Assembly (NCBI RefSeq): GCF_910592395.1
Contig: NC_088319.1
Coordinates: 15,808,001-15,872,000, forward strand
Reading direction: 5' to 3'
Origin: Lineus longissimus
Taxonomy: Eukaryota > Nemertea > Pilidiophora > Heteronemertea > Lineidae
DNA length: 64,000 nucleotides
The notes under the pieces are model-generated. The model ran no database searches. It was not told the origin of the DNA and was given only the letters and a program-made list of their open reading frames with translations. Below are positions 18,831-64,000 of the stretch, one piece after another. Made by a program: the position numbers and the translations under genes. Within the stretch, counting starts at the first letter, position 1; each line of letters starts with the position of its first letter.

Positions 18831-19267
18831 TCAGTTACCACGGTTGGGTGGTCCCACCTTCACTTCAGTCTTATAACCTGACGCTAACGCCTCATCAGAA
18901 TGGGTCATTTTCAATTTGACCGGTTCAGTCGCACTAGTAGTAGGAGTAACAGCTATAGAAGTCCGTACACCGTTCGCGCTCGCCGTAATATCACTTGTTT
19001 TATACTTTGCGTTAATCTTTGGTAAGTTTAACGGCTGCATGTACGGACTTGAGTTTGAGTTCGAGCGCCCTCTGGGAACCCATTCGTCCTTGATCGGGGA
19101 AGCACTCCGAGCCCTTTGAGGAGATCCACGACCTTGGGTCTCCGACTCGCGTTGTTTGGACGAGCGCCGATCCACTCCACAGTAGAGGTAGGTGAAATTC
19201 TTGATGGCCCGGATGGGATAAATGGCTTGACTCTTTCGTACCTTCTCGAAGACTTCTATGCTGATGG
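18831..19267 (-). CDS. TTLL10: NlpC-TTLL10 exon 13 (tail and stop)
   Basis: Last coding exon: end of the TTL domain, then a Ser/Arg/Thr-rich tail with [16 protein letters not shown] (1120-1135) and PVKLKMTHS (1184-1192). TGA stop at 18831-18833. The acceptor ACTTCAG restores the frame from exon 12. Confidence 0.92.
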
Positions 19268-22200
19268 CTGAAGTAGAAACATAACTAATTAAGCAGAGGT
19301 AGTTTCTTGCGAAATAATTGGCCAAGTAGTGAGATATGCTTTAATCAGGAGAGCTTGGGTTGACCCTGTGAAGGACCACCACGTTATGCTCACACATCTT
19401 GACCTCAACCTACCAAACCTTCATGGAGTCAGCTATAGTAAAGCGAGTTACCCAAGTCTACAATCGTACCTAGCGACTCCTCCACCATTGGAGGTAGCGT
19501 CTCCTTGAGAATCTCCGTGCCGATATGGAGGGCTGGGTTGATGTTGACCTCAATCAACCAAACCTTCATGGCGTCGTCAATCATAAAGTCGAGGCCATAC
19601 AACTCGAAGAAGCCAACTTTTGCCGTCAGTTTGTGGCGTACGCTGTTGAACAGATGGAGCATGATTCGTTGCATTTGTTTCTGAAAGACAAGGAAACAAC
19701 TCTCTTCAACGACTCATGGCACATCTTGTGCCATTCGCAGAACTCGCATATTGTTGCTTGTGTTAGTGAAGGGGGAGGGGCGTAGGCAAGAATTTCGGGG
19801 TTCATTTGGTAGACTCCAGGTGGCCAATATGCACAGAACTAGGGAAATGGTTCGTTAATCTACAGTCGCGAAGCATCGGTTCGAGTTACCTTCTGATGCA
19901 CAGTAGCGACAGATCAGCATGACCCCACTGACTTGTCTGTATTCAGAAACCCAACCAGTACTGACCGTGCAAGTGTTTTTGACCCAGTCTTTCTCAAGTC
20001 CTTTCTGCTCCATGTGCTTCTCGTTGATGTAATCGTTAAACTGCGCCATGTTGATCACGGTGTCCTCTTTCACGTCTTTGTACAGAGGGTCCTTCTTTTG
20101 AATAAACTACAATAGCAACAGAGATATTGATGTTAACTCGGCAATCAAAGATTATTGGTTGGTAGTTGTGTTTCTAGAGTACCCCAGTCAGATGTACCAC
20201 TTGTACTTACCTGGTTAGTAAGATGTGTCGTGAGATCTGTACTGTCCTTACAATACTTGTGGCACGAAAGACGGATGTATCCCTTGTGGTATAGCACTAT
20301 GAATGGCACGGTACTGGCGATGAGCATGTATGCACGGATGTCAAACTTACAACCACGGATCAGCAGAGGATCCTTCAGGTACCTAAAGTGAAGCATAACA
20401 AGTTTTAAACAAGTGCTTCAATACATAAGGAGAAACTGCCAGAAGGTACGTATTTTGAGACATGATTGAGGAGTCCACTTCCTCTCAGTCTAGTTTTCCT
20501 CCAAGGACCAAGGGTTTCTCCAACATCACTGCAAGCAGACTACCGTAGCTGAGCCAGTTAGTATCATTAAAGACCCTTGCCCAGAGACAGTTGTCCACAG
20601 AATACTGTTCAAGGGAGGAAATTTGAAGGAGAGTCAATGGGAAGGAGTAGGGTGGTGGGGGTTAAGCCCTGATATGGGGCAGGGCTCACACGGAATCATC
20701 CCAGCTGATATTGATGCCCTATCAAGTAATTGGCCTCACCTCTGAATAATCCTTGGCATTGGCCGCTGACTGCGCTTTGAGTTGGCAAACTTCTCCTCTC
20801 TCTCCCTGAAGAACTTTGTGACATCTTCAAGCTCTCTCACCAAGAAGATACCTTTACCCTGATTAAGACCCGTCGGCTTACATATCCACATCTCACCCTC
20901 TGAAATTGATATAGGAGACAAGACCACGAATGAATATTCATAGGTTGGAGGGTCCAGGCCTATCTATTAGACGAGTGCATGTTTTTTACTCTCAAGTACA
21001 TATTTGGAGAGGTATTGCAAAAATATTTGTTGTGGCAAGTCTACAGATATAAAGAAATTATTTGATGAAAAAATTAATTTCGAATTTTGCTAATTTGGTA
21101 ATAGGGGGCGTGTTTTGAGTTTTTTCTGCCAGTTGGCTGAAAAGAGTGGAAATATCAAAGTCTGTCTAATTTGTCGATTAAAAAAAAATTTCCGTGGTCA
21201 ATCACCATTTTATTTTTCACCATTTACTTGCCCGACTGTCCGGAATAACATAATCTAAATTTCAGATTCACAACACCACGCGTTCTTTGATGCGTCGCGG
21301 TCAAACATTGACAATTTAACTGCTAAAAGGCTTAAAAAATCAATTGTGGTCTTGTCTCTATTTACACTACATTTTGGGTCAATATAGTGAAAAATTTGAA
21401 TGTGCTCAAATCACTCTAATTCATTTAGAATATTGTATTGCTGATGATTTAAGGTCAAAACAAGCTAAAATAATGAGAAAAAAACTTAATTTGACCCAAA
21501 TAAGAGTCAACCTAACCCCGGTCTAAGTTCGGTTTCATTTTTACAAGTCTTGTTGTGTTGCCATTCATTTTGTAATTTCTTTGAAACTACTTAGGCCTTG
21601 ATTCTGAAAGTTGTTCCCTAAGCAGCAAAGATATTTCTAAATCACATCCTAAAGTTTCAGCTCCATAGCTTGCTTATTCTGGCCAGGGCAGGTCTTTGAA
21701 TTTGGTGCTGTTGGGTGCAAAATCATGACTTTTTGTCGATTTTGTCCTCTTTCGTCGCTTTGGCACAGTTGTACCACTCTTTGAAATGTCTCTCATTTCT
21801 CCAAAAATGTCCAGATATGACTTTCCTTTGTTGGAGAGTTGTGGGATGTCATGTACATTAGTTTGAAAAAAATCGCAAAATGTTAACCCCTGAAATGTAC
21901 CTTCATTGAGACAAGACCACTAATGAATATTCATAGGTTGGAGGGTCCAGGCCTATCTATTAGACGAGTGCATGTTTTTTACTCTCAAGTACATATTTGG
22001 AGAGGTATTGAAAAAATATTTGTTGTGGCAAGTCTACAGATATAAAGAAATTATTTAATGAAAAAATTAATTTCGAATTTTGCTAATTTGGTAATAGGGG
22101 GCGTGTTTTGAGTTTTTTCTGCCAGTTGGCTGAAAAGAGTGGAAATATCAAAGTCTGTCTAATTTGTCGATTAAAAAAAAATTTCCGTGGTCAATCACCA

Positions 22201-25200
22201 TTTTATTTTTCACCATTTACTTGCCCGACTGTCCGGAATAACATAATCTAAATTTCAGATTCACAACACCACGCGTTCTTTGATGCGTCGCGGTCAAACA
22301 TTGACAATTTAACTGCTAAAAGGCTTAAAAAATCAATTGTGGTCTTGTCTCATAGATAATTATCATCATTATCATCATTACCGGCATCGTAACCCTATTG
22401 GATTTTTGCAGGAGGTATGGAGTCCACTATAGGCTACTTTCCACCTATGTGGGATCTTTTACTTGCCCTGGCATAGACACTCAGGTACAAGGGACCACGG
22501 CTTTTAGTCTCATCCGACAGACCCTCGACTATTTCATACGTTAATGTACGTGTTGTGAAGAGCCAGGAATTTTAGTTCCTTGAAAAGCATAATTGTTTAC
22601 GCTATTTTGAAGAATATATCACTTGCAGTCAATCATAATCCGTATCGGTTTGGATTGTTACCCTACCTTGATAAGTTTCATAGAAAGCCTCCCGATCGTT
22701 GCGTTCATCGAGATTGTACGTCTCCGGGATGATGTCCGTCATTTTAAACCTCGGTTGACGGACTTTCTTCATCGTCATGGTCACCCGTTCATACTCACGC
22801 AGACTATTCATCAAACCGAGCTTGTTTGTCAACAATGTACAGTTTGGAACGTGATTCACCATTTGTTCACCTGCAGTAGAAATCATCAACATGTTAGACA
22901 GGTGGTCATGTAAGTTACGTCATGTTCCTAGGCTTTTTCCTTTCCCCAGGTATGGTATCAGAGATCTTCTGCCTGTTGGACTGAATTTACGATTTACATA
23001 GAAGAGATACGATCAATTTTACTAACCTTCTTTGAAGATAGTATAGTTAATCTGACTTTTACACTCCGTCCATTTCAACCGGAAATTCTCGCACGATTTC
23101 TCTGTCGTCCGCTTCCAGCCGAGATTGGTCAGGACATTCTCAACTCTGCAAAAACGAAATATGCGATAATATCTCAAACACTATGCAAAAAGATGCTCCG
23201 TATCACTCTGAAAGATGAAAAAAAATTTAAGTCCAAATATTTTTTTCTCACTGGATTTTTTTTCTGCTCAAAATGAAGAGACATTATCATTTTTGGACTC
23301 TGAAAATTTTTCAGAATTTTGAACTCTGAAAGATGAAAAAAATTTTAAGTCCAAATATTTTTTTCACTTGGTATGAAATCATGGTAAATCTCAATTCACC
23401 ATGGTAAATCATCATTTCACCATGATGAATTTGGATTCATTTTCGTATAAGGGAAGGGCCACCTTTGTAACCAAGTAACCTCCAATTAACTGAGGAGAAG
23501 GCAGACCACGCGCCTAATCACAGCAGGCAGACGACTGCAATTAACTTGCCACAGTTGGCATCCTCTTTATAGGAGGCAGACAATTGAGGTTCCTTATGGG
23601 CAACAACTCAAGTGAACGTACAAAGCTGTTCCATTGAAGCCTCCGATGTAAAACAGCGGCGTCTGATTGTTTGCCAGGCTGACAGTGGGTGGAGGGAGTC
23701 TTTTTGGTTTCTTCAGTGATGCGTCTGCAGCCGTATCGGTTTTCTCCTGAGAGTTGTTTGGACTTTTGATGCTCTCCCTCTTCTCCTGTTTCTTGTCTGT
23801 GGAAAAATGAGCAGAACGGTGAATTTTTATGGTCCAGAAATCATTTCATAGTTTATGGTGGGGCGGTCATTCCCCCATTATCTTGGCTGTTGCCTTGGTT
23901 TTGGCCTATACATTTCAGATCCACCCTCGCAGTGAGACAACGAATCCCTCCAGTTAGGTATCACTTCCTTAACAGTAAGGCACTCACGTCATCTCCTTAA
24001 CAACACTCTAATAGAGATGATCAAGAAACAATCATGAGCAACAAATTTTATTCTCACCAGTATCATCTTGTTGTTTTGGTCTCGGAGGTGAGGACTTGGA
24101 AGCACCAGATTCTGATAATCTCCTATTAGTCGTGGAAGCACCAGCGTCGGAGGATCTACGGTTCCCTGTGAAAGACAATACAGAAAAAATTTAGATATTT
24201 AGTACTACCACCTGAGGGATCAAAGCAGAATGATGATGTCATTGCAGCAACATGGCAAAATATCCAAGGTTTAAATAGAAATGTTCACCTCTGAGTATGA
24301 GAACTATACGAAATCTGTTAGACATAGCTGCCTTTGGTCATTTACGGTGATATTTGTGTAGAATTCGTCAGTTATGGACCATGGATAAGTTCGTCAGTAA
24401 CGGACCATATGGATTAGTACTTGGCTTTTATCATTAACTCACATAGGCATGGTGGTCACATAGATATCTTGGTTAAAGCACAATTCACCTGAACCATTTC
24501 ATGTTGGTCAAACCCTCAGGCAAATCTTGATCACCAAGCAGAATAATTGTGATAATTTGTGACAGAGCTTTCACTTGATACAATCAGTAATTGAGAAGCC
24601 CCTCAGCTATCTTTGTTAAAGGGCTTCAATGCTATTGTTTCATACTTGATCTGAAGATGATTCAATTAGACAAGATTAATTATCAACCCTTTCAGGTCAT
24701 CTTTGAGTAGCTGAATTATCCAAAGATGTTAGCTTGTTTGTCTCTGTGAGAGCAGTGTGTGTCCAGAATGGCTACTTTCCACCCATGCGGGTTCATTTGC
24801 CTTGGCTGATAATGAAGCGTGGCTATAATACTGTCCCATCCCAGACACAAAGAGCCTCGGTTTTCGACCCAAATGGCCCGGGGACTTGAATCCTTGACCT
24901 ACTGCTGGTAACACAGATTTGACGACTTTAATAGGCCATCCCGATTCTGGGAGTGAGAGGTCAATGGCCCGGGGACCTGAATCCTTGACCTACCGCTGGT
25001 AACACAGATTTAACGACTTTAATAGGCCATCCCGATTCTGGGAGTGAGAGGTCAATATTTGAGTAGTGCAGAAGTGGGTGAGAACATTTACAGCCAACAG
25101 CGGGGAGATGATCATTTGTGATTTTGCATGCAAGGGAGGTTTTTGTGAAATAGTATGGCATTGCAGCTTCAGGTATTTGGAATAAAAGGTATTTAGTGTT

Positions 25201-28200
25201 GAAGGTTCACCTAAATAGATAGAGAGAAATGAACAGCTGTAAAGAACATCTAGTGACATTGCCCAATTGCCCTTTGCTGAAAGATAATCTACAAGATGAT
25301 TAGTGAAACATGCAAAAATTGGTCATCAAGATCCTACAACTCTACAAGTGTCGTTTGATTCTGTGCAAAGCAGACATTGGGGGAGATGACTACAATGAAC
25401 GATAGCTTTTAACACAATTAACCAACCTGGTTTCTTGGTTAATTTGGGTGGTTTTCTTTTATGCATCTTATGAAATCTATCAAGCTAGAATGAATGAAAC
25501 AATATTATAATCGCTGAGGTGAAAGGTTACACCATGAAAACAGGGAAAGAGGCAATGGGTGATATGAATAAAGACTAGCAAATGCTTTTACTTCAATTTT
25601 GTACAGAAAGGCCTAGTGTAAATGTACATGGAGTTTTAGATAAAAGCATTTGCTAGTCTTTATTCATATCACCCATTGAAGGGACCGGGCACCCTGAAAG
25701 AAATCTGTGAATAATGTCATTTCGGGTCTCAAGGAGGCATAATATTTGCTTTTTGAAGTGCGAAAAATGGTTCCGGGAGTATTACGAAAATAGTCCTTTG
25801 AAAAACTTGAAACCTTTTTCTGGATCCGGATAAAAAGATCCGGAAATCCGGAGCACTCTCATCTATGAGTAGCACCTGTACCCACCTGCCAGCCAGCTCT
25901 TTGAGATGGAAGGGAAAGCTGATCTGAGTCTCCGAGGCCGTGCTGAACAGGAACGACAGTAACGGTATTCATTCATAGCTGCACAAAGGAAGCACATGAT
26001 TCACGTGTAACTCCATCTCTTGCAATGAAACACTAGGCATTTTGTCCAGTTTGTCAGGGAGAAGAAGAAAGCTTGCAAGTCTGTTGCACTGACAACTAAT
26101 ATGGAAGACTTAAGGGGTTTTTGAGGTTCAACTGTGACACGGACACCAAGAAGATTTTCCAGAACAGAATGCAGCTTCAGAGAAGAAACGAAGTAAATAT
26201 CAATTCAAAGTTTTATAGGAAGTCATTCAAAAGTGAAGCATGACTGACAATCACTTTATCCTAATCAAGTTATGACAGGAAAAACACTCCATAAGTACTC
26301 TCATTAGTCACTCAAAGTTGACACGGAAGTACTCCCTGACTTCACACAAAATTTCAGTTTTATGAATTATCAACAATTCCGCCCGAGTGCCGTAATTCGT
26401 AATCACACATGTTATCTAAAGATCAACTTTGCTTATGAGTTTACGTCCACTCCAAACCGGGATCAACGCTTTAGCCAGCGGTTTGTTTTAACGGCACATA
26501 TTCTGTAGCCACTGGTAATGCCTCATCAATAATAAATGGAAATTCATTAGAAATGGATTGCGGCTTGCAACGTGCCACAATCTTACAGTTGATGTGTATA
26601 CATGATGGCTAATATTAGTAACCAGGTGGCAACAATGGGAAAATAACATCATAATTTCAGCGGAATTCATGTAATTTTTGATAAAGCGAATGAACATAAT
26701 GAAATTATTAGCGGGGAATTATCAAAACAACGCAATCAACAGCGGGGTATTATCAACGACAGCTCCTGGCCATTAGTATTTTAGTTCATTTCAATAGGTC
26801 ACTTTTTTGTTCTGGGCTATTATTAGCAAATAAATCAAATATGTGTGCAAATATTTCCATGGCCAGATTCATTTCAGGGGGGTCACTTATTTTCTAAGAA
26901 TAGATATATTTTACAGAGAGGTAAACCAGTGTACTAACGGATAAACCACTTACTTTTATTAATCAAGGTTTGAAGCTTGCAGATCACTTTTCTATCCATA
27001 ATGAAGGATACCACATGACTGATAAGATCGAAGTCAATAACATATCAAATCTTAAACACCAAAATGCACACATTTGTGACTCGCTCTACCAAAACTAGGC
27101 GCTTGTCGCATCTGAACTCGACAGGTTGATACGGACTTGTTGTTCATTTCCCTATTGTAGACCTTTTGTGAAATCTATTACAAACTGATTTGGTCACATT
27201 TTACAAAAGGTCTACAATAGGGAAATGAACAACAAGTCCGTATCAACCTGTCAAGTTCAGATGCGACAAGCGCCTAGTTTTGGTAGAGCGGGTCACATTT
27301 TTGAAAAGACACTGACATATCAACACGACTTGCCAACTTCTAGACGTGTACATACATCAAGAAAAAGCTACTGAAAGTGTTGTCAACCTCAACAATACCT
27401 TGCTACAAAACACTTGCTGTTTGTTACCAAAATCACTAACAGCAACGTTGACCGATAATGACTTCGCCGCTGAAATTGATGCAGGCTTTGTCAATTTGTC
27501 AGCAGGTTGAATGAAGTCATTTCTGAACCAATCAAAAGCTATCATATGGAAAGTTAATAATGAAAGTGCTAAGTTAAGTGACCTGTATTAAGCACGTGCC
27601 GTTGAATCTATCATAATAATTTAGCTAGAATGGTGTGAAGGCAGTTTGAAAAGGTCTTCTATTAAGGTCAACAGAGTCATACGTGATCAACTGGAAAGCT
27701 TTTGAGGCCTCCAAAGCTGGGGAGTTTTGAGACGTAGGTCTTCAAAATATACTGTGGCTTGGGTTTTTATGCTCTTATGCTAGGCTGACAGAGACCAGCT
27801 CTGAATGGGTTAACGGAGGTTTTACCCATGATCCCTCACTGGTTGCCAAGGAAGTACAAAAACAACTGTTGACAAAAGTGGAAATTACATCGGCACATTA
27901 GCGGATATTTATAGAAGCAATTTCAATAAACCAATAATATATTCATCGCTGCGTCTATTCCGAGCCACGATGCAGCCGCAGAAAGCCATGAAGCAATATG
28001 GGATCCAAGTTGCCTAGTAACATGTAAACAGACTACGCAGGCAAGGCAGAAAAGAGGGGAAGCTAATTTCTGGAATCAAGGGTCTTCTAGTCTCAGAATA
28101 ACTGCAAGTTACTATGAGGTGTGTAAGTCACTTTGGCATAGTTTTGCATCATCCGCTCGATTCATAAAACCGACAGAAGCCTAGAGGTTCAAAAGAGAGG

Positions 28201-31200
28201 GGTTCCCGCAGTGGAAGAGATGAACACTTTGTAAATTTCCTTCAATTCGTTGTCAATTTCAAAGAACCTTGTCAAGCTTGAGCCATACCGAACTCTCAAG
28301 CCTTCTTTAGCAAACATCAACTAAACTCCTTCACGAAATAACGAAATGAACAAAATATGCTATAGAAATGGGCGTTGTGAGGAAAGCAATGTTCAAAAGT
28401 CAGACTAACCTCAATAATACAACATGTACTTCACAGAGAAGCTATAAAAGACTAACCAATTAAAGCTAATGAAAACAGAGAGATGGGAAACAAAAAGGAA
28501 GAAGTAAGGAGTGCACATGTCGGACATGAGTCGATATAAAACATAGACCTACCTCTCATCAACGGAGCACTAGTCAGCCACTCCCGATTTTGAATTCCTC
28601 GTCCACACAGATAGACGTACACAGTTTTTTCTTCAAAGACTTTTTGAACGCCTAACATTTTCAGCGGATTTATTTCCAAAGGCATTGTTAGAAAGTTCAG
28701 CAGGAATGAGGATGAAAATTCCACAAAAATAATGAAGTGTTGGATATATTTTTAGCTTAAGGTGTTTGGCTTTACACTGCTATGTTAATACCAGATATCA
28801 GGAAATTATCTAACTGGTGAATATCATAAGTCAATGTCCGTTTCCTAGAAATTGGTGCCATAATCGTACAAAATCATATCGTGAATCGTTTTGTGAATGA
28901 AAGAAAAGGAAAAAATATCGTCACAATCCATCAGATTAACCTTTAGTGGTGTTTATATTAGAATCTGCTAATCTCATAAAAGCTGCTTTTTTAATTCGTA
29001 GAATATGCGTCTGCTTTTATAGAAATATTAGAATGAATCAAGCTATCAATACACATTGTCCTGGTCACAGAGTCAAATACACAGGCAATGTTGACAGCTG
29101 TTCAATCAATAAAACGACCCCCTTGAAAATGATACTGCTGTTCAATCAATAAAGCGACCCCCTTGAAAATGATATTGCTGTTCAATCAATCAAACGGTCC
29201 CATGGTTATCAGAATTTCATTTTTTACCAAATATCTAGAGGAATTCATGAAGAAGAACTGTGCATTATCATTGGTCATAGACGGGTGACTGCTGTTCTTA
29301 CAAGATGTCCGGACAAAAAGAGTCGATTGGTCATGTCCACTGTTCTGAACTTAGCTGGGGGTAATATCAATTTGAAGCGTTCTGAGTGACACAGTGAATC
29401 GAGTTGGACAGTGACATGACCAGGTCTTTAAACAAATTTACAACACCAGAAAATGAAAATGCCACGGTTCTGATCTAAACAATTTATTGTTGATAACAAT
29501 AATATGGCAATATCAACTTGGTAAAATGGATGGAATGTGTTGGAATGTAGACAATGGGGTACAGGATTTCAACTCGCCCTTGGCCACCTTTCCGGGTAAC
29601 GGATGTGCATACCCCCTTTCCAAGGGAGCGACCCCTCCCCCAATAGTAATCACAGTCATTATGTACCGTAAATAGTACATTTAGCACTCCCTCAGTGTTA
29701 GTAATAGCCACAATCACTTACACATTTGAATGTTAGTAATAATCACTTTATGATATCAGTAGTAGTAATAGTCACATTCAAATGTTAGCAGTAATCACAT
29801 CTAAATGATTGTAATAGTCACATTCAAATCATAAAAGTTAGTAGCGATCACATCCCATTCATAATGTTAGTAGTGATCACATCCCATTCATAATGTTAGT
29901 AGACATCACACCCAGACAGCAAGTCGTGTTATCACACTCTGATCTATCTAAACTATATGTTATTCCTTTACCTTCTTCATTACCTGTGGCACCAGGGGGC
30001 TTCCACTCCGCCTTCGGGGACGGGGACCGAGTCTTCTGAGGAACCCGTGGCATATTCGATTGAGCTTGGCCTTGCGCATTCTTGAATGGGGGCGATACCA
30101 CGGACATTGTCCTCTTCGGGGAATTAGTTCCCGAAGAAGTCTGCCCCTGTGTTGGACCGCCTGGCGCTTGAGTAGACTTGCTGGCATCTGTCTGTTTCTG
30201 AGATGTCACTTTTGCCGTCGCAACTTGCGGCGACATCTTTGAAACTTGAGCAGCTGGTGGAGAGGATTTCCAAACTGGTGCAGACTTCACGGGAGACTGG
30301 GCGGCCGCCTTTTGGCTTGCATTGAAACTAGAATCAGATTTTGTATTCGAGTCAGATTTGGTTTGTTTAATGCCAGGTGAGATCTGTTTGACTGGTTCTG
30401 TCTTCGCTAATGTCTTCGGATCAACTTTCGTTGGAACTTTACCATTATTGTGCTGGCTCTTCACAGATGGCGCGTTTGCCAGTTTTGAATTGTCCGTCTT
30501 TAAAGAACTCGGCAGCTGTGGCTTCGGTAGTGTCGTCACAGATTTCGTTTCCGGTCCCCTCCTCTGAGAGGCCGGGGCAGATTTCTGCGGGTTAGACGAT
30601 GTATTGTTCGATACAGACCCATGGGCTGGAGCACCCGGCTGAGACCTTGATGTACCAGCAGGTGCAGATTTCTGAACTGCTTGTGCTGAGACTGGGACCC
30701 GCCGCTGTGATTCTTTATCAGGCCCCTTGCCAACCGGCTGTAAAGGCGGACTCGTGGTCATTTTCAACTTAATCGGACCCCCACTGTCTGTTGATTGTTT
30801 ATCTTGTTTCTGTGGTGAGGGCTTGTCCTGCTTTTTTATAAAATTCTTATTGTTTCCACCGTCATCTTTAGAACGACCCTTTGACATCACGTCAACAGCG
30901 TTAGCTGCAGTTTCCATCGAATCTCCTGTGGTCGACCCTAAGAACTTCGCATGCTGTGGTGAACTACTCAACTTAACAGCACCAATCGATCTAGTACCAT
31001 TCCGTAGATTCTTCCCAAGACCAGCGGACGCGACGTTAGCACCGAAATTTTCGATATTCATCTGTTGATCCTCTATTTCTTCTCCAAGATCTTGTTCTTG
31101 TTCTTCCTGCATGTCCTGCATCTCCGGCGTGTTTTCAATTTCTCCCTCTAACAAACAATCGCGCAACTTTTTCCGGAGCTCCTCAGGATCGTCCGGAGTC

Positions 31201-34200
31201 ATGATGAGCTCGTCATCAGTGTCATTGGCGTCCACACAATCGTCATCTTGAGCCTGCTGCATGTCACTGTCATCTCGTTTAGCGAAGACCGAGCGGGTGG
31301 ACGGAGCATACATCTTGCCCTTCCGGTGCCAGGGGTGAACATCACAGTAGCTGAAACACAGAGGTAGAGGAATTTCGTAGAATTTTTTCCAATTGTGAAT
31401 AGTTTGCTCTACACAAAAGAGATTGTGAATCTCTTGTGATTCTCTTGGGTGCGGAACACCAGGCCAGAGAAACTCAATAGGACTTAATCAGTTCCGTTAC
31501 ATACTGCCAGATGTCAGCAGATGTCATGCCAAGCGCTGCCAGAAGCAGACAGGTGTCGATACGGAAAGCGAGTATTTGTTTGACGACGACCCAGGGAAAT
31601 GAAACAATGAGATGAGACTGAAATAATATATTCTCAGAGCTCCTTTGTTTATAAAGGTGTGGAGACATTTCTTGGGGTGATGTTTGGCAGACGTTGAGCC
31701 ACCTGTGACCGCAGGGCAAAACCTTTACACAGCTTTTAATCCAAGACAATATAAAGAGCCGGAAAATATGATTTGAAAGAAATGTTATCAGTTGACTTTG
31801 TGATACAAACGTAGACATCTCAGTAACAGGTTTTTATTGTCATTCAGGTTTAGTCAAGTAAAGCAACAGTTCTATGACTGTGACTTATTCCAAAAATCTA
31901 TGGTGAAATTGCAGACAATCTCCAATTCATCATCTCTGGTAAAACTTCTGATCCATACCTTTGACAAATTCCCATCAACCAAGTGTCAATAGACTTGAGG
32001 GTGTATTTAGGAGAATGGTACGAGGTAGCGTTGAACTTGTAATGGTCGAAGACTTGCACTTTGCCCTTCTGCCAGCGGGCACCTATCGTCTTGGGGCCGT
32101 CCCCCAACCAGATCTCCACATGCACCATGTTGTGACGCTGCTTTTTGGCTGAAACGAGTCAAAACAAAACAGGTCTGATGTCAACGTTATAAAAGTATTC
32201 AGCTGAACCTCTCTACGGACTAAGTGTCTAAGGACACAACTTGGAGCGGAACTGACAACAGCTGTCCTTGATTGAGAGGTGTCCTCATAACAGAGGTCAG
32301 ATTCAATGAAAAGCACAACTTTGGACAAAAGGTATTGTCCCTATCAGAAACGATGTACTTAGAGAGAGGTATCTTGCAAGAGCAATTCCATTATAATCTC
32401 TTCTTGATCTGCAATTATCATAACCTGTACCTGTAAAGACTTTTGATTTTAGTTTAAATAGAGTCCACCAAACCAGAGGGAAGCACTTGTCTCTCTGTCG
32501 ACCCTCCTTTGGACATTAACTCAAATTCTAGCTGAAAAAGTGCACTAGCGCCTTCAAGCAAATGATCAATATGTCACTTATTCATTGACAATCGTAGCCA
32601 AGTCAACTGCTGTGAATTTTTATTCTTCAAATGACAAAACTAAACAGCTAGTCCTGGGATAACCTACGGCAAGCTTGATAATACCCCCATGAAAGCGTTT
32701 CATGGGGGTCGTCTTCTTCTCAGACAAAGGTCAAACAGTTCTAACTAATGAAAGACACTTCATGATGGTGTAAAACTCTCAATTGGAGTCGAAAGACAGT
32801 TTTCTGATGACATGGACGAGGGCGATTGATTTAGGGAGGATATTTCTGCTCCGTTGGCACCAAGTGCGCGTGAACTGTCATGGCGGCTCCTGTGTGGGTT
32901 TATTGTCAACATGATCATATCAAGGGCCTGGCGCTATTCTATTACAACAACAATAGACACACACATTAGCTTTGCACACTGCCATATTCGGAAACTGCAA
33001 ATAAAAGCCGTGGCAAATCGCTGGAAGTTTCTCGCAAATATCCATGGAAACTTTACCTAAACTTTTTTCGCACTCGTCAACTCTATTGTCCTCGCGCAAC
33101 TTACTAATGCAAACTTTCCAATCGCTACAAAGCCAATGTTCACGCCCGGGGCGATGTGTGTCAGTGCCTCGGCGACGGATCTGAAAATTCTATCAACAAG
33201 TGCAAATTTTGCCCGCGGAAATATCATGGAACAATACAGCAAACAACGCTTATTATCTGCGTGTTTACCCAGTGCCAATATGAAACAAATCTAGCTCTGA
33301 ACTCCAAAATACACTCGGCTTTCGATCTGAGTTGACATTTTCCCTGGCGTGCCATGAGTGTAGGCCTGAACAGAAAGTGTGTAAAAAGCCTTGGAACAGT
33401 GTATAGAATCGCTTCCAAATATCAAAGGCTCAGAAGAAAGGGACACCACAAGACCATTCATAGGCCTTTAATAATTAAGGAAGACATAGCCACATCAACC
33501 AACATCCTAAGATGATCAAAACCTTGACAATAGCAGCAAATTAGATAAATAAAATCAGGTAACTTATTTTCCTTTTACCGGTAATAGAGCACGTAGTACG
33601 GGAAATGTTTAAGATAATTTTTGAACCTCCCTCTTTAAAACTTTCATTCCAGACTTAAACTCAAAGGGTTAAACTGCCAATGTTGGCTTAAGCAAAACCT
33701 GTTGTTGCCTTTGATATTTTCCCAATATCCCTCGATAGCTAATGAGTCATAAAGGAATGAATTATTCAAAACGAGCTGATGCTCATAGTTATTCAAACCA
33801 CCACATGGTGGCACCACATGCAAAGTAAGACCGTGTGATGACGGGCAGTTGATCTTGTGGTGTTTGACTGCAACTAGTACTCCAGAGACTGGAGAGCCAT
33901 CATAGTAGGGCCGGTCTCCCCTCGCCCGTGCACAGCGCTTTTATACTACTGGGCTACATCTGGCCATTTCAGACCAGTTGAAAGTACCAATTGGCACTGT
34001 GAGACTTGAACCCATGACCTTCTGATAAAAAATCAGACGCTCTTCCACCGTTCAAGCATCAGCGGAACCACCTTGAGAAATTTTTTTCAAATACCTCAAC
34101 ACATTTCTTTGACATTCATGATGTTCTAACTGACAAAGGATCTAGACTCGAAAGATTTGAGTTTTCGAAAATATCTGGACCTTTCTTACCATTATGCTGT

Positions 34201-37200
34201 GATCAAAACTTTTGAAACCACTTTGGACATTACTTTGACTTGTGTTAGCCATACAGGGTTAAGCCACACGTACTCTCTGACCTATGAATATGAATTATTC
34301 ATTCAATCAGCGGAGAGCAGCCGGTCCACTTGGAGATTGTCCAGAGTGGAGATGGACATTGTAATGCCTCAGCAGGTGCATCATTATCTCCTGACGGAAT
34401 GAGGTGTATGCTGACGGTTGGTTGAAAGGTCTAGAAGCTCTGCGAGCTATGCTGACTGTGTTAAACCTATTAAATCAAGACATGTCGATGCCTACACCAC
34501 TGACACATATAACCATAACCACATGAATTTATTTGACTTTGAGAATTGTCTTTTTTTCAAGACATTGGGATGGTCCGAAAAACTGTTGTCATCATTTAGT
34601 GAAGACTGGATTCGGGAGAGTATGCGGCGAGATCTGGGAAATATTGCTTGTGAAGATGGTGCCGATTTGAGAATGGACACCATGGCATATACCCTCTTCT
34701 CCCCACACCGAGCCATTTTGAAAACCCAATAGCCTCTTGGTCCATGTAGCCATGTTTCAATATTGCCATTCTTGAGCTGACGACAAAGTACACTCGGGCC
34801 ATACGCCATCCCCGAGAGTCTATAGACCGACTTCATCAGATCGTGTTTCTAAATGATTTCCTCTGTTTGAAAGAACAGCACCTGAGAACTGATCTTCACC
34901 GACGACAAAACAACTCCTAGAGCGAGCATTAAAAGGGTTACAGTTTCACCTGCCTGGCGTCACATGCAAGGTGATAAACATGGAATGTTTCCTGGTCGTG
35001 GCGTAAGTGACGGAGGGTGCGGGATTCTCACTTTGCGCCATAATGGAGGATTATTTCCTTCACCAGGATCAGGTAGCCTGTCTCTCGTCTCATTCACAGC
35101 CAGCAAGGTGCTTTTTGCTTTGAAGATGGAAAGGTTCTCAGGTGTTCAGCAAGTTTACATCATATTTTTTATGCTTTTGGTCAGACCCTTCTTTTCGTTG
35201 CTTTCCAGATAGATAATTGTGACAAGCCGTGGTCTAGTCATTGCCAGAAGAACCCTCTTCTACATTACCATAATGATCTGTTTGAATTTACTCGCCAAGG
35301 TAGATTATCCCTTCGAACAAAGTACAGGTGTCCCATTGTTGTTAAGGTGCAAGCTATCGTCGTTAAGCTGCAACCCTGCCAACCTCGTCCATTAATCCTG
35401 CCATGGTCCAGCCAATCACTTTCCAACATGTGCCACCACGTGAAAACGTTCACTAAAAGGACTGATCAATCAAAATCGTCAGGTACGCTTTTGTTTATGG
35501 CAACGCAGCGATATTGCTGTGTGACAGTTTTAATTAAGTATGAAATCGCTAGACAATGCAGCTAGCAGGGGGTCGGGAGAATCAACTCACTGAAGCAAAT
35601 CAAATCAAGAATACATGGTTCAGAGAATCTGCTTGGGACAGGCTCCCTTAAAACGTTCACACTGATGCATCATCAACTATTGCAGAGTTCTTTATGGGAT
35701 ATGAAGGAGGTTTCATGAGTCACCTTGCAAATTTATGATAGGCAACACACAAGTTCATGAGTCTGTATAGGTATAGCAACGTTGGGAATAGGGCACCAGC
35801 AAAACTTCAGCCACTGCCACCAGGACAGACTGTCTTGTGGATGTTGCATAGTGTGACAGAGGCGTGATGTGAATTTTTCTGAGTTTTGACGTCATTTTGG
35901 CCGTATTCAATATTCTACAATGTAAATTAACAAATGAGTCACGCCAATATGTTGAAGTAGCATGCCAATCTCATCTGATATTTCCAGCATGTCGTACTGC
36001 GGAGTAGTTAGCCGGTTTGGTCTTAGTGCCCGAGGACGGCCCTATTCCGGGCTGAAAAACGAACAGTTGTATGACTTTCTTCAATATTCTATATTACACA
36101 TCAACCAACGCCGGTCCCGCCAACAGCATACCACTCTCACATGATATTTACAGCGTATCATGAGGTTGGTGCTCAGTTGGGACAAAGATATTGGTGGCAG
36201 TGTATGACCGGTCATACACTGCTGATATTGGTCATGAGGGATAGACCCGCGGGATAGGTCTGTACACATGTCTAGTACAGCCTATGAGCAGTATCATGTC
36301 CTAGCCTATCAAAGGCCAACCATTGACTGTAGCCATGAATGAACCAACTATGCCTCTCACTAGGTGTCAAGACAAACGTGCGAAACTTTAAAATCATCTT
36401 TTCATCACGAAAAAAGAATAGAAATACTGAATAGAAATATCTATGGATCACTTTCTTTATTAGTTTTCAATGGACTTTCAAGTATCTGACCTGCTTGGAT
36501 CGTTAACAACATGATGTTAAGACCAAAATTCGCACCAAATAACCCTGAAAATGTAGGACTCTGCATGAGACTTTTCAATTTTCTGTGAATCAAAGTTGTC
36601 TTGGTAATAGCACAATGCCACCTTTTTGAATTAGAGACCTTCCTCATGGGAATCATGCTAGACTTGTTGACAATGATGAAGGCTAGAAATCACGAGCTGA
36701 GATCAAAACCCAACGCTTGTCAAGAGGAACATCTGACTGAGCATCCTGATATACCAAGCCATTTCACTGAATACATCCTCTCTACTCCCTTTGAAACATG
36801 CATATGGAGGAGTCATGTAGGCCCTGTTGGCAAGAGGATGCCGATTGAGCAACCAAGCCCATCATTAAACCAAGCAATGCCAGGGTATTGTAGTCACACC
36901 GCTAACATTCTCACGTAGACCATACGAACTACGAAGGCAATACACCATTACTTCATAATGAAGGATTAAGTATACCTGAGGTGAGCCCAGCATTGATACT
37001 CCTGAGTAACCTAATAGTCCAGCGCATGAGTAAAGCTGACCACTGTGTGATGTTGGGTTACTGCCATGACCACGTTGACATTGCAAGCGACAAGCGATTT
37101 ACACTGCTGTATGTGGTATGTGTGACAAAAAAATCTCACGGTAAAAGGACTAAAACTAGTAATCGCTCAGGTATTGATATTGACAACAGGTCGATGCAAT

Positions 37201-38821
37201 CACCGGTAAAATCAATTGTCAGTTTACAGTCTGTATCATCATTTCGTTCTTCAAGTTCACCATGTTAGCCAAAGTGGAGTGATGTGCCCATAGACAAGAT
37301 CTGGTATGGAAACATGGCGTCAGTAGAAGCAAACCTTGTGAAAAAAGTTGCTGACATATCATCGAACCTGGTGGTAACCTGGCCGACCGTGGTAAATTAT
37401 TCACAATTATCCATTATGATTCATCAACCATTCAGTCACCAATTCAGCTGATGCATGCAACAACCCAATAAATAAATAAAATTCAATCACCCATGCGTTG
37501 TTTTGAGACCTAGTGGCTCTCCTATGGCGTCTTTGAATTTGTAAGCCACAGATACATGAAAGGGATTATCCCTCTCACAGGGAAGATGTTCCCAGCATAT
37601 TAACACTGGGTTTTATGCAAATGACAATGGGATCAAAGGAATTATGGTTACTTTCTATTCACAGCTGGCCGGCCAGGTCGGTAGAGACGTAAGATGACAT
37701 TCTACATGGAACACTACAACTTCATGAGGCCACTTCAACTAGAAACATTGGCACACTAGGGTGTATTTCACACTCAACATCATAGGCCTACATATTGTTC
37801 ATACTTTAGAAACCCGCCAGCAGAGCTTTCATTTCTCAAACACTTTGCTACGAACCCTTTTCGCAATGATTGTGTGGGATGCATTCACAGCTATCGCTGT
37901 CTCAATGGTGGCATGACGCTATGCATGATGTGACATCATTCAAGCTGAAGCGTCTTGCATGACGTGACATCATTCGAGCCGCAGCGTAACGCGTCACGCA
38001 TGTCAGCTGGAGAGTTTTAGCAGGGCACGGCACCATCTTTTCTCAAGTCTCTCTTATTGCCCTGCCATTTTTCATCAGCGGCCAATGCATTTCATTCTGA
38101 AGGAGGCCACTGCATCCTGTCCTTTTCTGCTCTGCCGTGTTTGATTTCTAGCTGAAACATTACTGATGCAAAACTGGTCGCAGCAGAGAGGAATAGTGAC
38201 AAGACTAAGAGAGGAAACACAAATGGCCAAAACTTTTTGTCAATCTGGACATGAATTGCCCTCTCACCTTTCGGATTGTTATAAATGGCCGATATGAAGA
38301 CAAGATCACCAGGCTTCATGTCTTCCTCCTTGCGTACTGTAATAGGAAGGGTATCATACATGTATGCTTGGTTCCACGGCCCGATCTTGAAGCCAAAGTC
38401 AAACTTTAGGTCCCACATGATCCGGCGCACAAGGCCGCAGCAGTCGAGGAAGATGGGTGACTTGTACTCAGGAGCTGAAGAGAAAGAAGCTGCTTAGAGC
38501 TGGGCCCATTTAGGAAAACATACAATCGAGATTACGAACCGTGTTGGCATACTGCACTGGGGTTCGTCTATCAATCCAAGGGTCATAGTTTGTAGACTGC
38601 GTTTGGATGCAACCAGTAGATATTGGAACAGCAGAACCACAATGCCACACAGGGCCATAGATTAACTCACCATCTTTGGGCCAATACTTTCGTTTATAAG
38701 GCACACCGAAGTACTTCTTTGCCCGTTCAAGAAACTTCTTACGGAGCTCTTCCATACATTCTGGGTTCGTCCGCTTCTTCATCTGTATCTCGCGTAGCTT
38801 CATCTGTTCTTTCCATTCACT
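18831..38821 (-). CDS. TTLL10: NlpC/P60-like domain fused to TTLL10-type tubulin polyglycylase
   Basis: Exons: 38671-38821, 38268-38474, 31959-32148, 29984-31350, 24058-24165, 23622-23796, 23027-23145, 22667-22870, 20740-20899, 20211-20382, 19966-20106, 19470-19680, 18831-19267. All phases agree: 1213 codons and a TGA stop. Residues 1-190 look like an NlpC/P60 peptidase: [18 protein letters not shown] (C62 predicted nucleophile), HVEIWLG (H129). Residues about 190-715 are low complexity. Residues about 720-1068 are a TTL ligase: [20 protein letters not shown] (ATP loop), [25 protein letters not shown] (E1042, N1044 for Mg-ATP). TTLL10 in mammals extends glycine chains on tubulin and other proteins; the human form is reported inactive. 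Linker and tail share two motifs. Acts probably on axonemal tubulin; NlpC activity is inferred. The 5' end is unresolved; an ATG exists at 38801-38803. Alternative: two genes read through in silico. Confidence 0.88.
19470..19680 (-). CDS. TTLL10: NlpC-TTLL10 exon 12 (Mg-binding Glu/Asn)
   Basis: Encodes [20 protein letters not shown] then [17 protein letters not shown]. The E and N of [10 protein letters not shown] are the conserved metal-binding residues, so ligase activity is expected to be kept. Phase 0 to 1. Confidence 0.96.
19966..20106 (-). CDS. TTLL10: NlpC-TTLL10 exon 11
   Basis: Encodes [20 protein letters not shown] and [15 protein letters not shown], matching TTLL10 FMQKKSPLYMLLKEHTVWSM and ARGLAKDWVFTTL. 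Phase 0 to 0, donor GTCAGT. Confidence 0.93.
20211..20382 (-). CDS. TTLL10: NlpC-TTLL10 exon 10
   Basis: Encodes [19 protein letters not shown] and [12 protein letters not shown], the TTL KFDIRxY and HLTNQ signatures that bind ATP-Mg and substrate. Phase 2 to 0. Confidence 0.96.
20740..20899 (-). CDS. TTLL10: NlpC-TTLL10 exon 9 (ATP loop)
   Basis: Encodes [20 protein letters not shown], the ATP-grasp nucleotide-binding loop of TTL ligases (K848, G855-K856-G857), and ends PRIIQR. A mobile element lies 15 bases upstream of its acceptor. Phase 1 to 2. Confidence 0.95.
20915..21358. repeat. Terminal direct repeat, left copy (444 bp)
   Basis: Bounded by the 13-base inverted termini GAGACAAGACCAC / GTGGTCTTGTCTC. 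Differs from the right copy at, for example, GACCACGAATG (right copy GACCACTAATG). Confidence 0.8.
21908..22351. repeat. Terminal direct repeat, right copy (444 bp)
   Basis: Same length and termini as the left copy, about 99% identical, same orientation. Followed directly by ATAG and then a SINE-like tail. Confidence 0.8.
22356..22535 (-). mobile_element. SINE-like element with ATGATAATG tail
   Basis: On the minus strand it reads ...CACATAGGTGGAAAGTAGCC... and ends in repeated GATGATAATGATGATAATTA, a typical simple-repeat SINE tail. The phrase GGTGGAAAGTAGCC recurs at 24770-24785. No promoter boxes are clearly visible, so it may be 5'-truncated. Confidence 0.5.
22667..22870 (-). CDS. TTLL10: NlpC-TTLL10 exon 8
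   Basis: Encodes [20 protein letters not shown] and the [20 protein letters not shown] segment, equivalent to TTLL10 LPNNKLLTTKIGLLSTLR and FFPETYRLDLKHEREAFF. Phase 1 to 1. Confidence 0.93.
23027..23145 (-). CDS. TTLL10: NlpC-TTLL10 exon 7
   Basis: Encodes [20 protein letters not shown] and [20 protein letters not shown], matching TTLL10 YTLKWCEVKSRDSYGSFREG. Phase 2 to 1, donor GTTAGT. Confidence 0.9.
23204..23375. repeat. Dispersed CTCTGAAAGATGAAAA / AAGTCCAAATA repeat
   Basis: The phrase CTCTGAAAGATGAAAAAA...TTAAGTCCAAATATTTTTTTC occurs twice here (about 23204-23260 and 23322-23375) and again inverted at 40317-40398. Non-coding, intronic. Confidence 0.6.
23622..23796 (-). CDS. TTLL10: NlpC-TTLL10 exon 6 (start of TTL domain)
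   Basis: The basic linker ends at [19 protein letters not shown], matching human TTLL10 PFFYIGGSNGASL. Phase 1 to 2, donor GTACGT. Confidence 0.88.
23892..23971. repeat. Half of the palindromic element family, copy C
   Basis: Matches the right half of the 4117 element (CCTTGGTTTTGG..., GATCCACCCTCGCA, CCTCCAGTTAGGTATC). Truncated copy in a TTLL10 intron. Confidence 0.5.
24058..24165 (-). CDS. TTLL10: NlpC-TTLL10 exon 5 (linker)
   Basis: Encodes [20 protein letters not shown] and [13 protein letters not shown]; Ser/Arg-rich. Acceptor TTTCACAG, donor GTGAGA, phase 1 to 1. Contains a repeated SGAS/DAGAS phrase. Recognised by phase and composition rather than similarity. Confidence 0.75.
24872..25053. 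repeat. 91-bp tandem dimer
   Basis: Two adjacent 91-base units starting AATGGCCCGGGGAC and ending GGGAGTGAGAGGTC, differing at about three positions. On the minus strand each contains GGATTCAAGTCCC, similar to a tRNA B box, so the unit may derive from a SINE. Flanked at 24770 by the SINE phrase GGCTACTTTCCACC. Confidence 0.7.
25553..25678. mobile_element. 126-bp perfect-hairpin element
   Basis: Arms 25553-25590 and 25641-25678 are 38 bases each and perfectly complementary (left arm begins CAATGGGTGATATGAATAAA), with a 50-base spacer. Perfect arms suggest a young insertion or selection for structure. No clear target duplication was seen. Confidence 0.7.
27075..27297. mobile_element. 223-bp MITE with about 95-bp inverted repeats
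   Basis: Arms of about 95 bases differ at only two positions. They open TGTGACTCGCTCTACCAAAA and close TTTTGGTAGAGCGGGTCACA; the centre of about 33 bases is unpaired. Shares terminal TGTGAC and the internal CTGTCAAG phrase with the 8094 element. In the TTLL10 intron between exons 4 and 5. Confidence 0.75.
29097..29215. repeat. 40-bp tandem repeat, three copies
   Basis: GCTGTTCAATCAATAAAACG recurs at exact 40-base spacing (29097, 29137, 29177), the third copy diverging near its end. Intronic. Confidence 0.75.
29692..29905. repeat. Degenerate GTTAGTAGTGATCACAT tandem repeat
   Basis: Units of about 30 bases such as GTTAGTAGTGATCACATCCC follow one another with decay towards the left. It lies just downstream of the donor of the large TTLL10 linker exon (in the sense of transcription). 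Confidence 0.65.
29984..31350 (-). CDS. TTLL10: NlpC-TTLL10 exon 4 (large low-complexity linker)
   Basis: A 1367-base exon. The first residues ([20 protein letters not shown]) finish the NlpC domain. Then comes an acidic stretch (ORF residues 12-85, rich in Asp/Glu) and about 350 residues rich in Ser, Pro, Lys, Gln and Thr with three KSAP repeats. PIKLKMTTS lies at protein 375-383 and [13 protein letters not shown] near 624-636; both recur in the C-terminal tail. Probably disordered and phosphorylatable. Donor GTAATG, phase 2 to 1. Confidence 0.88.
31959..32148 (-). CDS. TTLL10: NlpC-TTLL10 exon 3 (catalytic His)
   Basis: Encodes [19 protein letters not shown], the NlpC HVxIYxG motif with H129, then [16 protein letters not shown] and [12 protein letters not shown]. 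The residue normally His/Asn/Gln after the second strand appears as Gly (TIGARW). Separated from exon 2 by a 6.1-kb intron. Phase 1 to 2. Confidence 0.9.
32208..32300. repeat. Dispersed GTCCTTGATTGAGAGGTGTCC repeat copy
   Basis: Contains AACCTCTCTACGGACTAAGT and GTCCTTGATTGAGAGGTGTC. Related to the 5725 fragment and to the core of the 61-bp minisatellite at 41446. Confidence 0.5.
33990..34070 (-). repeat. tRNA-Lys-like pseudogene or SINE head
   Basis: On the minus strand: D-arm-like GCTTGAACGGTGGAAGAGC, anticodon arm TCTGA-TTTTTTA-TCAGA (5-bp stem, 7-base loop, UUU), and B box GGGTTCAAGTCTC (34001-34013). The acceptor stem does not pair, so it is not a functional tRNA gene. The downstream unrelated body suggests a tRNA-derived SINE. 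Confidence 0.6.
38268..38474 (-). CDS. TTLL10: NlpC-TTLL10 exon 2 (catalytic Cys)
   Basis: Encodes [17 protein letters not shown], the NlpC DCSGLV-type nucleophile motif, then [15 protein letters not shown] and [18 protein letters not shown]. The PGDLVF motif is typical of NlpC/P60 folds. Phase 1 to 1. Confidence 0.9.
38671..38821 (-). CDS. TTLL10: NlpC-TTLL10 exon 1 of those secured
   Basis: Encodes [20 protein letters not shown] and [19 protein letters not shown]. The AKKYFGVPY helix resembles the xxLGxPYxxGG start of NlpC/P60 domains. A strong polypyrimidine acceptor (CCCTCTTCTCTTTACAG) precedes it, so an upstream exon must exist. If that exon is untranslated, the first ATG here is at 38801-38803. 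Confidence 0.85.
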
Positions 38822-41445: not shown

Positions 41446-42255
41446 GTCCAACAGAGTCTCCCATCTCTCTGGTTAGGTGTCCTCGATTGAGTAGGGGTCA
41501 CAACCATCATGGAGACATGGAGGTGTAGCTGGTTTATAGGTGTCCTTGATTGAGTAGAGGTCACAACCATCATGGGAGACAAGGCCGTGTAGATGGTTAG
41601 GTGTCCTCGATTGAGTAGAGGTCACACCCATCACCTGAGACATGGAGGTGTAGCTGGTTAGGTGTCCTTGATTGAGTAGAGGTCACAACCATCATGGGAG
41701 ACAAGGACGTGTAGATGGTTAGGTGTCCTCGATTGAATAGAGGTCACAACCATCATGGGAGACATGGAAGTGTAGCTGGTTATGCGTCCTTGATTGAGTA
41801 AAGGTCACTACTATCACCTGAGACATAAAGGTGTAGCTGGTTAGGTGTCCTTGATTGAGTAGAGGTCACAACCATCACCTGAGACATGGAGATGTAGCTG
41901 GTTAGGTGTCCTTGATTGAGTAGAGGTCACAACCATCACCTGAGACATGGAGGTGTAGCTGGTTAGGTGTCATTGATTGAGTAGAGGTCACAACCATCAC
42001 CTGAGACATGGAGATGTAGCTGGTTAGGTGTCATTGATTGAGTAGAGGTCACAGCCATCACCTGAGACATGGAGGTGTAGCTGGTTAGGTGTCATTGATT
42101 GAGTAGAGGTCACAACCATCACCGGAGACATGGAGATGTAGCTGGTTAGGTGTCATTGATTGAGTAGAGGTCACAACCATCACGGGAGACATGGAAATGG
42201 AGCTGGCTAGGTGTCCACGATCGTGTAGAGGTCACAACCTTCAAGGTAGACTTGC
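41446..42255. repeat. 61-bp minisatellite, about 13 copies
   Basis: Unit reads GAGACATGGAGGTGTAGCTG then GTTAGGTGTCCTTGATTGAG and TAGAGGTCACAACCATCACCT, repeating every 61 bases (for example 41881 to 41942). Variants alternate CATCACCT and CATCATGG. Edge copies diverge most. Just upstream of the candidate promoter at 41 kb in the sense of minus-strand transcription. Confidence 0.9.
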
Positions 42256-62612: not shown

Positions 62613-64000
62613 TTTCTAGCCGGAGTACAAGGGCTCTGTGATGCACTTTATTATAAAAGGAGCCGCCCTGCTTTAAAACAATGAAACAGATTCGTCATGT
62701 GACATGACCTCGAACAGATGCTAACTTACAACGAAATAATCTGCTGCGGATCAGCGCTAAAAAAAGTGTCACCATTTCTCTACGCGCGATTTATTTGCAA
62801 GGTGAAAAACGTGGAGTGAATAATCTCAACAATGGCGTCATCTTTTGAAATTTGATTTCTACGCGATTAATCCATTAGAAATTTAATGCACAATGCATAG
62901 AGTTTCACAAAAGTGCAAGCAGTTCTGTACCCTCGGGACTACTGTTTCGTCCCGGCCGCTATATCAAGATAAGATTACACGCTCAACTGGTCCTCAGAGG
63001 ACCCGTTCAAAGTGGGCAGGACTAAGATTTAACTGTCATTTTAGAAACCTGTGTCCCTCTATTTTCTCTGAAATTATGGGAATGAGGTATTTTGGGGCAG
63101 TTCTCGAAAAAAAGTTACTGACCACATTCACCAATGGTTACAAATCTGTGAAACGCCAAGGCAAATGATAGATTTTTATCACAGCCTCCTGCAATTATGC
63201 ATGTATATCGCTGCAACTGCAATGAGTGACAAAAAGACTGCTTGTCTCATGGCAAGACTGCTTCCCAGGGTTTCGTATTGATATTTCAGCGCTGGGCACT
63301 GCATCACATGATTTTGCTTCCTGCCTATCCCTGTCCCACTCTAAAGCTTTCAAACTCAACTTAATCAAGGTTGTGGAGTTCACTCAATCAACGTATGTTT
63401 TCTTCTTACGCAGGTTGCATGGCACCCGTTCCTTGGAAACCTACCACGCTGGATACAGTCAATTCATTTCCACATAATGGTGATCAATAGATTTTAATTG
63501 ATGAAGTGATCGCTTGTGCTGCATTATTGATAATAATCTGCTGAAATGGATGCATGTATTAATGCTCGATGAACAAAGTCTGGCTCAATTGGGGACATTT
63601 GCTGATGTACTCATTAGAATATTGGCTTTTATCTGCACAAAGGTCAGCAGTTCTTAAATGAGATGTCATATTCTAAGCACAGTTCTTCAGAACCAAGCCG
63701 AAACTTTAGTTTTTATTGGGTCTCAAGTTGAGGTACAAATAAAGTTTCAACAGCCAGATAAATGATGACACTTTATAACTTCAGCCTTTGGCACTTGCAG
63801 TTGGTTCAAAATGTGTAATGACCTTGGTCAAAATGGCACTGAGTTGGACTTAAGACAGGCAAATGCACAGAAGAGACAGCTAAGTACTCCTACATCAGGC
63901 ACTATCCCCACAGACAACTGACATTTGAAGATGGCTGTTCTGTTACCAGTTGAGAAGGCTACACCAGGTCCCCGACTATTGGCAAAACAAGACTATAGGG

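Follow-up and report, generated by a model that had tools for sequence, protein, structure and literature searches.

The polyglycylase TTLL10 elongates only existing glycine branches, which are attached to the gamma-carboxyl group of glutamate (according to the available part of PMC12340829). Glycylation of tubulin is regarded as reversible, and the glycine-removing enzymes are unknown (excerpts of PMC11244163, PMC5666887, and PMC12340829); the last of these, a 2025 preprint, says in the excerpt that no glycine-chain-processing enzyme has been identified so far. Amides on a gamma-carboxyl group, that of D-Glu, are cleaved by dipeptidyl-peptidase VI (DPP VI) and YkfC (PMC2954226, in part), and the trypanothione/glutathionylspermidine synthetase-amidases make and break one amide with their two halves (PMC11124245 and PMC10318531, both in part). 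Here, we describe a gene in a window of 64,000 nucleotides from Lineus longissimus (NC_088319.1, 15,808,001-15,872,000, forward strand; coordinates below are positions in this window) whose product almost certainly joins, within a single chain, an NlpC/P60-fold domain with a Cys-His pair to a TTL-type ATP-grasp ligase by way of a linker.

The gene had originally been predicted as 13 compatible minus-strand exons, and rebuilding them bore this out. The joined open reading frame (38821..18831) encodes 1213 amino acids, ends with TGA, and has no internal stop; all introns between the exons are bounded by GT..AG, and the phases are compatible at every join. Its translation matches residues 113-1325 of P0001 without a difference; P0001 is the predicted Lineus longissimus protein LOC135496646 isoform X2, annotated as uncharacterized, and therefore the same joins are present in the public gene model. 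According to splice sites and frame, the first predicted exon (38671..38821) carries the start of the front domain, from P0001 residue 113 onward. The two motifs named in the original prediction are present in the following exons, DCCGLV in exon 2 (38268..38474), with the codon of catalytic Cys174 at 38442-38440, and HVEIWLG in exon 3 (31959..32148), with that of catalytic His241 at 32122-32120 (both residues in P0001 numbering). Exon 4 (29984..31350) encodes the last part of the front domain (match to about residue 305 of P0001) as well as most of the low-complexity linker and ties the two together, as had been claimed. The linker continues through exon 5 (24058..24165) into exon 6 (23622..23796), where the TTL region starts; exon 7 (23027..23145) belongs to the TTL region, and the TTL domain is encoded by exon 8 (22667..22870), in which the Pfam match begins, exon 9 (20740..20899; WICKP and NQGKGI), exon 10 (20211..20382; KFDIR), exon 11 (19966..20106), and exon 12 (19470..19680; DFMIDD and EVNINP). 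Exon 13 (18831..19267) contains the end of the TTL match, the C-terminal tail, and the stop codon. One part of the prediction had to be given up: residues 1-112 of P0001 have no coding match within the 64-kb window, and therefore the gene has to start upstream of 38671..38821. Probably, at least one 5' exon of this TTLL10-like gene lies beyond window position 64000.

The predicted TTL ATP-grasp domain with its catalytic residues was confirmed. Pfam TTL (PF03133) matches residues 773-1074 with an E value of 1.1e-52 and 179.5 bits, compared to a cut-off of 20.1, and the ATP-grasp residues at ten positions chosen after TTL are all present in P0001. The nearest named relatives are TTLL10 entries such as P0003 of Lingula, with TTL-region identities of up to 60% (the names are automatic, and some matches are named polyglutamylase). 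The best PDB match outside the TTLL10 group is the Xenopus protein 5vlq with 79 bits; PDB members of other TTLL groups score far lower than TTLL10. From these similarities, we infer that the ligase half is probably of the TTLL10 type, with a predicted glycine-elongating activity.

The same domain order, which the original prediction had proposed to seek in other proteomes, is common. A front-domain search (113 matches) and a TTL-region search (best 120 of 161) together yielded 189 distinct proteins, of which, according to our own hidden Markov models (HMMs), 106 carry both domains, 13 only the front domain, and 70 only TTL. The front domain precedes TTL in 105 of the 106; the exception, P0078, is due to a stray match of 1.7 bits, and its main matches are in the usual order. 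Both domains are found in invertebrates (nemerteans, a brachiopod, molluscs, annelids, a hemichordate, echinoderms, cnidarians, and sponges), fishes (lampreys, sharks, sturgeons, bichir, Megalops, and coelacanth), tetrapods (axolotl, caecilians, turtles, a crocodile, and lizards), and the ciliate Tetrahymena malaccensis; some EukProt entries may be choanoflagellates, judging by the style of their identifiers. Judged by these sequences, the fusion is old and widespread and not peculiar to Lineus, and a recent gain in the ribbon worm is ruled out by the fused form in a ciliate, sponges, cnidarians, lophotrochozoans, echinoderms, and vertebrates. The proteins with only one domain, and Pecten, whose domains are annotated as two proteins (P0037 and P0120) on equally long contigs, would be in line with a gene-model artefact that merged two neighboring genes, one per domain. 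We consider this very improbable: exon 4 runs from the last part of the front domain into the linker, and its joins to both neighboring exons are compatible in phase; the matches are only 2 to 9 residues apart in the metagenome proteins P0107, P0109, P0110, and P0111, and the same join is seen in the public Lineus model and in 106 fetched proteins. Public names for such proteins are "protein polyglycylase TTLL10-like" and "NlpC/P60 domain-containing protein," and the architecture is unremarked there. A limited literature search found no paper on the NlpC/P60-TTL architecture, which does not establish its absence from print, and no word beginning with TTL was found in the available part of PMC10318531.

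Like TTLL10 polyglycylases, the Lineus protein has a TTL domain above the Pfam cut-off and the ATP-grasp residues; unlike them, it has an additional N-terminal NlpC/P60-fold domain, which is absent from 70 of the 189 relatives. Our HMMs detected it in none of the 37 entries from mammals, in none of the 3 from frogs, and in only 1 of the 3 teleosts counted. Human TTLL10, said in the original prediction to lack the domain, is not in the set, and both primate entries (P0150 of Eulemur and P0188 of Pongo) agree with that statement. TTL-only proteins are also found in amphioxus, tunicates, rotifers, and trematodes. Some absences reflect isoforms or gene models: isoform X3 of Mytilus californianus is without the domain and X1 of M. 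trossulus has it. Petromyzon P0139 is without it, and three Lampetra entries have it.

For the front domain, the HMM check suggested with the original prediction was positive for TTL and fell just short of the cut-off for NLPC_P60: the Pfam model matches Lineus residues 59-155, and its score rises from 17.7 bits with the whole protein to 21.6 bits with the N-terminal piece, compared to a gathering score of 23. The assignment to NlpC/P60 is made because of relatives and fold, not because of the single-sequence score. All 15 members of our front-domain profile A3 match NLPC_P60 at E<=1 (best, 1.1e-6), and a precomputed PF00877 annotation is found on P0084 and on 5 of 120 standalone relatives (the best 120 of 762). 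Since only TTL-like chains were listed when the complete Tetrahymena model was used as the fold query, the front domain was folded separately; the predicted structure has the NlpC/P60 fold, and its nearest folds in the search are hydrolases. Cys and His are present in all 117 alignment rows that have those columns, but Gly takes the place of the usual third catalytic residue, and the domain is a divergent NlpC/P60 subfamily. In 100 proteins with good coverage of both domains, the mean pairwise identity is 58% for the front domain and 43% for the TTL region, and the front domain is the more conserved one in 96.5% of the pairs; most of these proteins were retrieved with a front-domain query, which biases the comparison toward front-domain conservation.

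Residues were counted in an alignment of 119 front domains, using the rows having the column and P0001 numbering. D173, C174, H241, and E243 are each present in 117/117 rows, R256 and G218-D219-L220 in 118/118, and Y154 in 112/115. Equivalences to YkfC were assigned manually on the basis of HMMER alignments to 3npf. The front domain shares with YkfC/DPP VI the fold, the equivalents of BcYkfC Cys238, His291, Asp237, and Tyr226 (YkfC sites from the available part of PMC2954226), and the GDL motif. It differs from the YkfC type in having its own conserved Asn197, Gln198, Glu243, and Arg256 and in being fused to a eukaryotic ligase, outside the bacterial cell-wall context. The predicted union of an NlpC/P60-fold domain and a TTLL10-type ligase in one polypeptide is supported, with its Cys/His pair. 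The Gly at the third position and the replacement of several residues that bind gamma-D-Glu in bacterial relatives speak against a textbook NlpC/P60 enzyme.

Profile A3 also retrieved 762 short proteins, of which the best 120 were examined: all 120 contain the front domain, and 4 have a TTL match too. In agreement with the fused forms, D173, C174, H241, E243, and R256 are kept in 120/120; at position 254, the third catalytic position, 107/119 have Gly and 12/119 have Ala. Holders of standalone forms among the matches listed are Stentor, Blepharisma, Carpediemonas, Cafeteria, the sponge Oopsacas, and Ciona; one ANDGO identifier we take to be the jakobid Andalucia. The standalone protein of Ciona has 253 amino acids and starts with Met, and the fetched Ciona TTLL10 (P0132) is without the front domain. 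Two domains that are fused in many lineages and form a split pair in another would point to a functional link, of which this pattern is a common sign. Just before the front domain, fused and standalone relatives share a conserved SLQxxFxxF-like motif, as seen in consensus lines and sequences; its Lineus form is NLQQAFQKY, within P0001 residues ~99-112 and encoded by an exon outside the window.

Trimming or removal of glycine chains is suggested because a thiol-hydrolase fold of DPP VI/YkfC ancestry is fused to a glycine elongase. Our model, which we put forward tentatively and with somewhat less than an even chance of being right, is a writer and an eraser in one chain, in which the ligase adds glycine and the front thiol hydrolase trims the same chains. 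On tubulin tails, the C-terminal ATP-grasp ligase would lengthen the glycine side chains. The front domain would be a thiol hydrolase that is carried to the same tails, where it could attack the gamma-glutamyl-glycine branch or Gly-Gly bonds via a thioester at Cys174. This attack would trim or remove glycine chains, and the two halves would jointly set chain length. The fusion, the conservation, both folds, the ATP-grasp residues, and the Cys/His pair are based on sequence and modeling; hydrolysis, substrate, and coupling are all what we infer from them.

Several points weigh against this model. Hydrolase activity and substrate of the front domain are predictions, and Pfam NLPC_P60 stays below the cut-off in Lineus. 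Of 118 rows, 115 have Gly and 3 have Ala at the third catalytic position (a mapping at the edge of the 3npf alignments that depends on the strand pattern), and the polar third residue of a CHH-type triad on the next strand is absent from 118/118 front-domain rows. Compared to the YkfC sites in the available part of PMC2954226, Ser239 is replaced by Cys in 116/117 rows and Trp228 by Lys or Arg in 94/116, Arg255 by hydrophobic residues, and His303 by Gly; of the full Trp228/Ser239/Asp237/Tyr226 set of gamma-D-Glu endopeptidases, only Asp and Tyr are kept. A canonical murein endopeptidase is ruled out by the Gly at the third position and the altered S1 residues. With its Cys and His conserved, yet an S1 site that differs from the one in gamma-D-Glu enzymes, the domain could be an active thiol hydrolase for another bond, be it in glutamate chains, the tubulin C terminus, or another TTLL10 substrate, and would then prepare or clean the acceptor and not erase glycine. 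We consider this rather unlikely, since fusion to a glycine elongase points first to glycine chains and nothing points to another bond.

The fold as such does not decide for an enzyme: the non-catalytic RipD, described as such in entry titles, shares it. Together with the Gly at the third position and the reported variation of TTLL10 recruitment with the glycylation state (PMC12340829, in part), this would suit a non-enzymatic binding module that recognizes mono- or polyglycylated tails and directs the ligase. Such a role is unlikely in view of the Cys and His kept in 117/117 fused and 120/120 standalone forms (best 120 of 762), neither of which a mere binder needs. A dyad without a third residue also leaves the chemistry undefined, and transglutaminases and acyltransferases are among the papain-like families (available part of PMC10318531), which would fit a papain-like transferase or transpeptidase that moves a glycyl or gamma-glutamyl group. 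Nothing specific, however, indicates a second acceptor site, and the nearest folds are hydrolases, which makes a transferase improbable.

The ligase half, too, provides arguments against a writer-eraser. According to the excerpt of PMC12340829, elongation by a construct of Xenopus tropicalis TTLL10 (residues 105-570) is self-limiting, and the proposal made there is a control of chain length that is independent of a deglycylating enzyme. Elongation does not need the front domain, because the 70 TTL-only proteins among the 189 keep the ligase residues. At the ten ATP-grasp positions, residues are kept in 70/70 of them, save for Lys/Arg at one site, and the same two patterns are found in 90 of the 98 listed proteins with both domains, the other 8 having single changes. 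A decay of the ligase that accompanies loss of the front domain was not seen.

Trypanothione/glutathionylspermidine synthetase-amidase offers a precedent for the plan of the Lineus protein, an N-terminal papain-like domain with Cys/His and a C-terminal ATP-grasp ligase in one chain (as described in the available parts of PMC11124245 and PMC10318531). It differs in that its amidase is of the CHAP type and its substrate is a small thiol conjugate. CHAP and the matching synthetase family were absent among the Pfam matches at E<=10 (HMMER filters drop most matches above ~0.1), and the resemblance is one of plan, by analogy, and not of membership.

The Lineus gene is probably the full-length, ancestral form of TTLL10, and mammalian and frog TTLL10 may be without half of the ancestral enzyme. 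A further step, which we regard as possible but doubtful, would be to see in the front domain the missing tubulin deglycylase or a glycine-chain editor; the ancestral polyglycylase would then have been a writer-eraser whose eraser was lost in mammals, frogs, and at least some teleosts. If true, this loss would help to explain the lack of a deglycylase in the usual vertebrate models. In any case, a conserved Cys-His hydrolase fold on a glycine elongase is a concrete and testable deglycylase candidate.

About 11 kb upstream of the first predicted exon, and on the same (minus) strand, lies a precursor of the mir-8/mir-141/mir-200 family (49801-49868; 67.1 bits; hairpin z, -6.1). It is probably intronic to the TTLL10 gene if a 5' exon lies beyond position 64000. 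Because mouse Ttll10 is named as the host gene of miR-200b/a/429 (PMC5356520 and PMC7460436, both in part), the linkage of mir-8 and TTLL10 may go back to early bilaterians. Within intron 8, a near-identical segment is found twice (~20934-21258 and ~21927-22251), recognized by its matching reading frames, and one copy stops just before exon 9. A tandem array at 41469-42243 consists of 12.7 copies of a 61-base unit with 89% matches. Downstream of the gene, an exon-like open reading frame on the minus strand (6241-6579) matches the voltage-gated chloride channel family PF00654 (E=3.1e-14).
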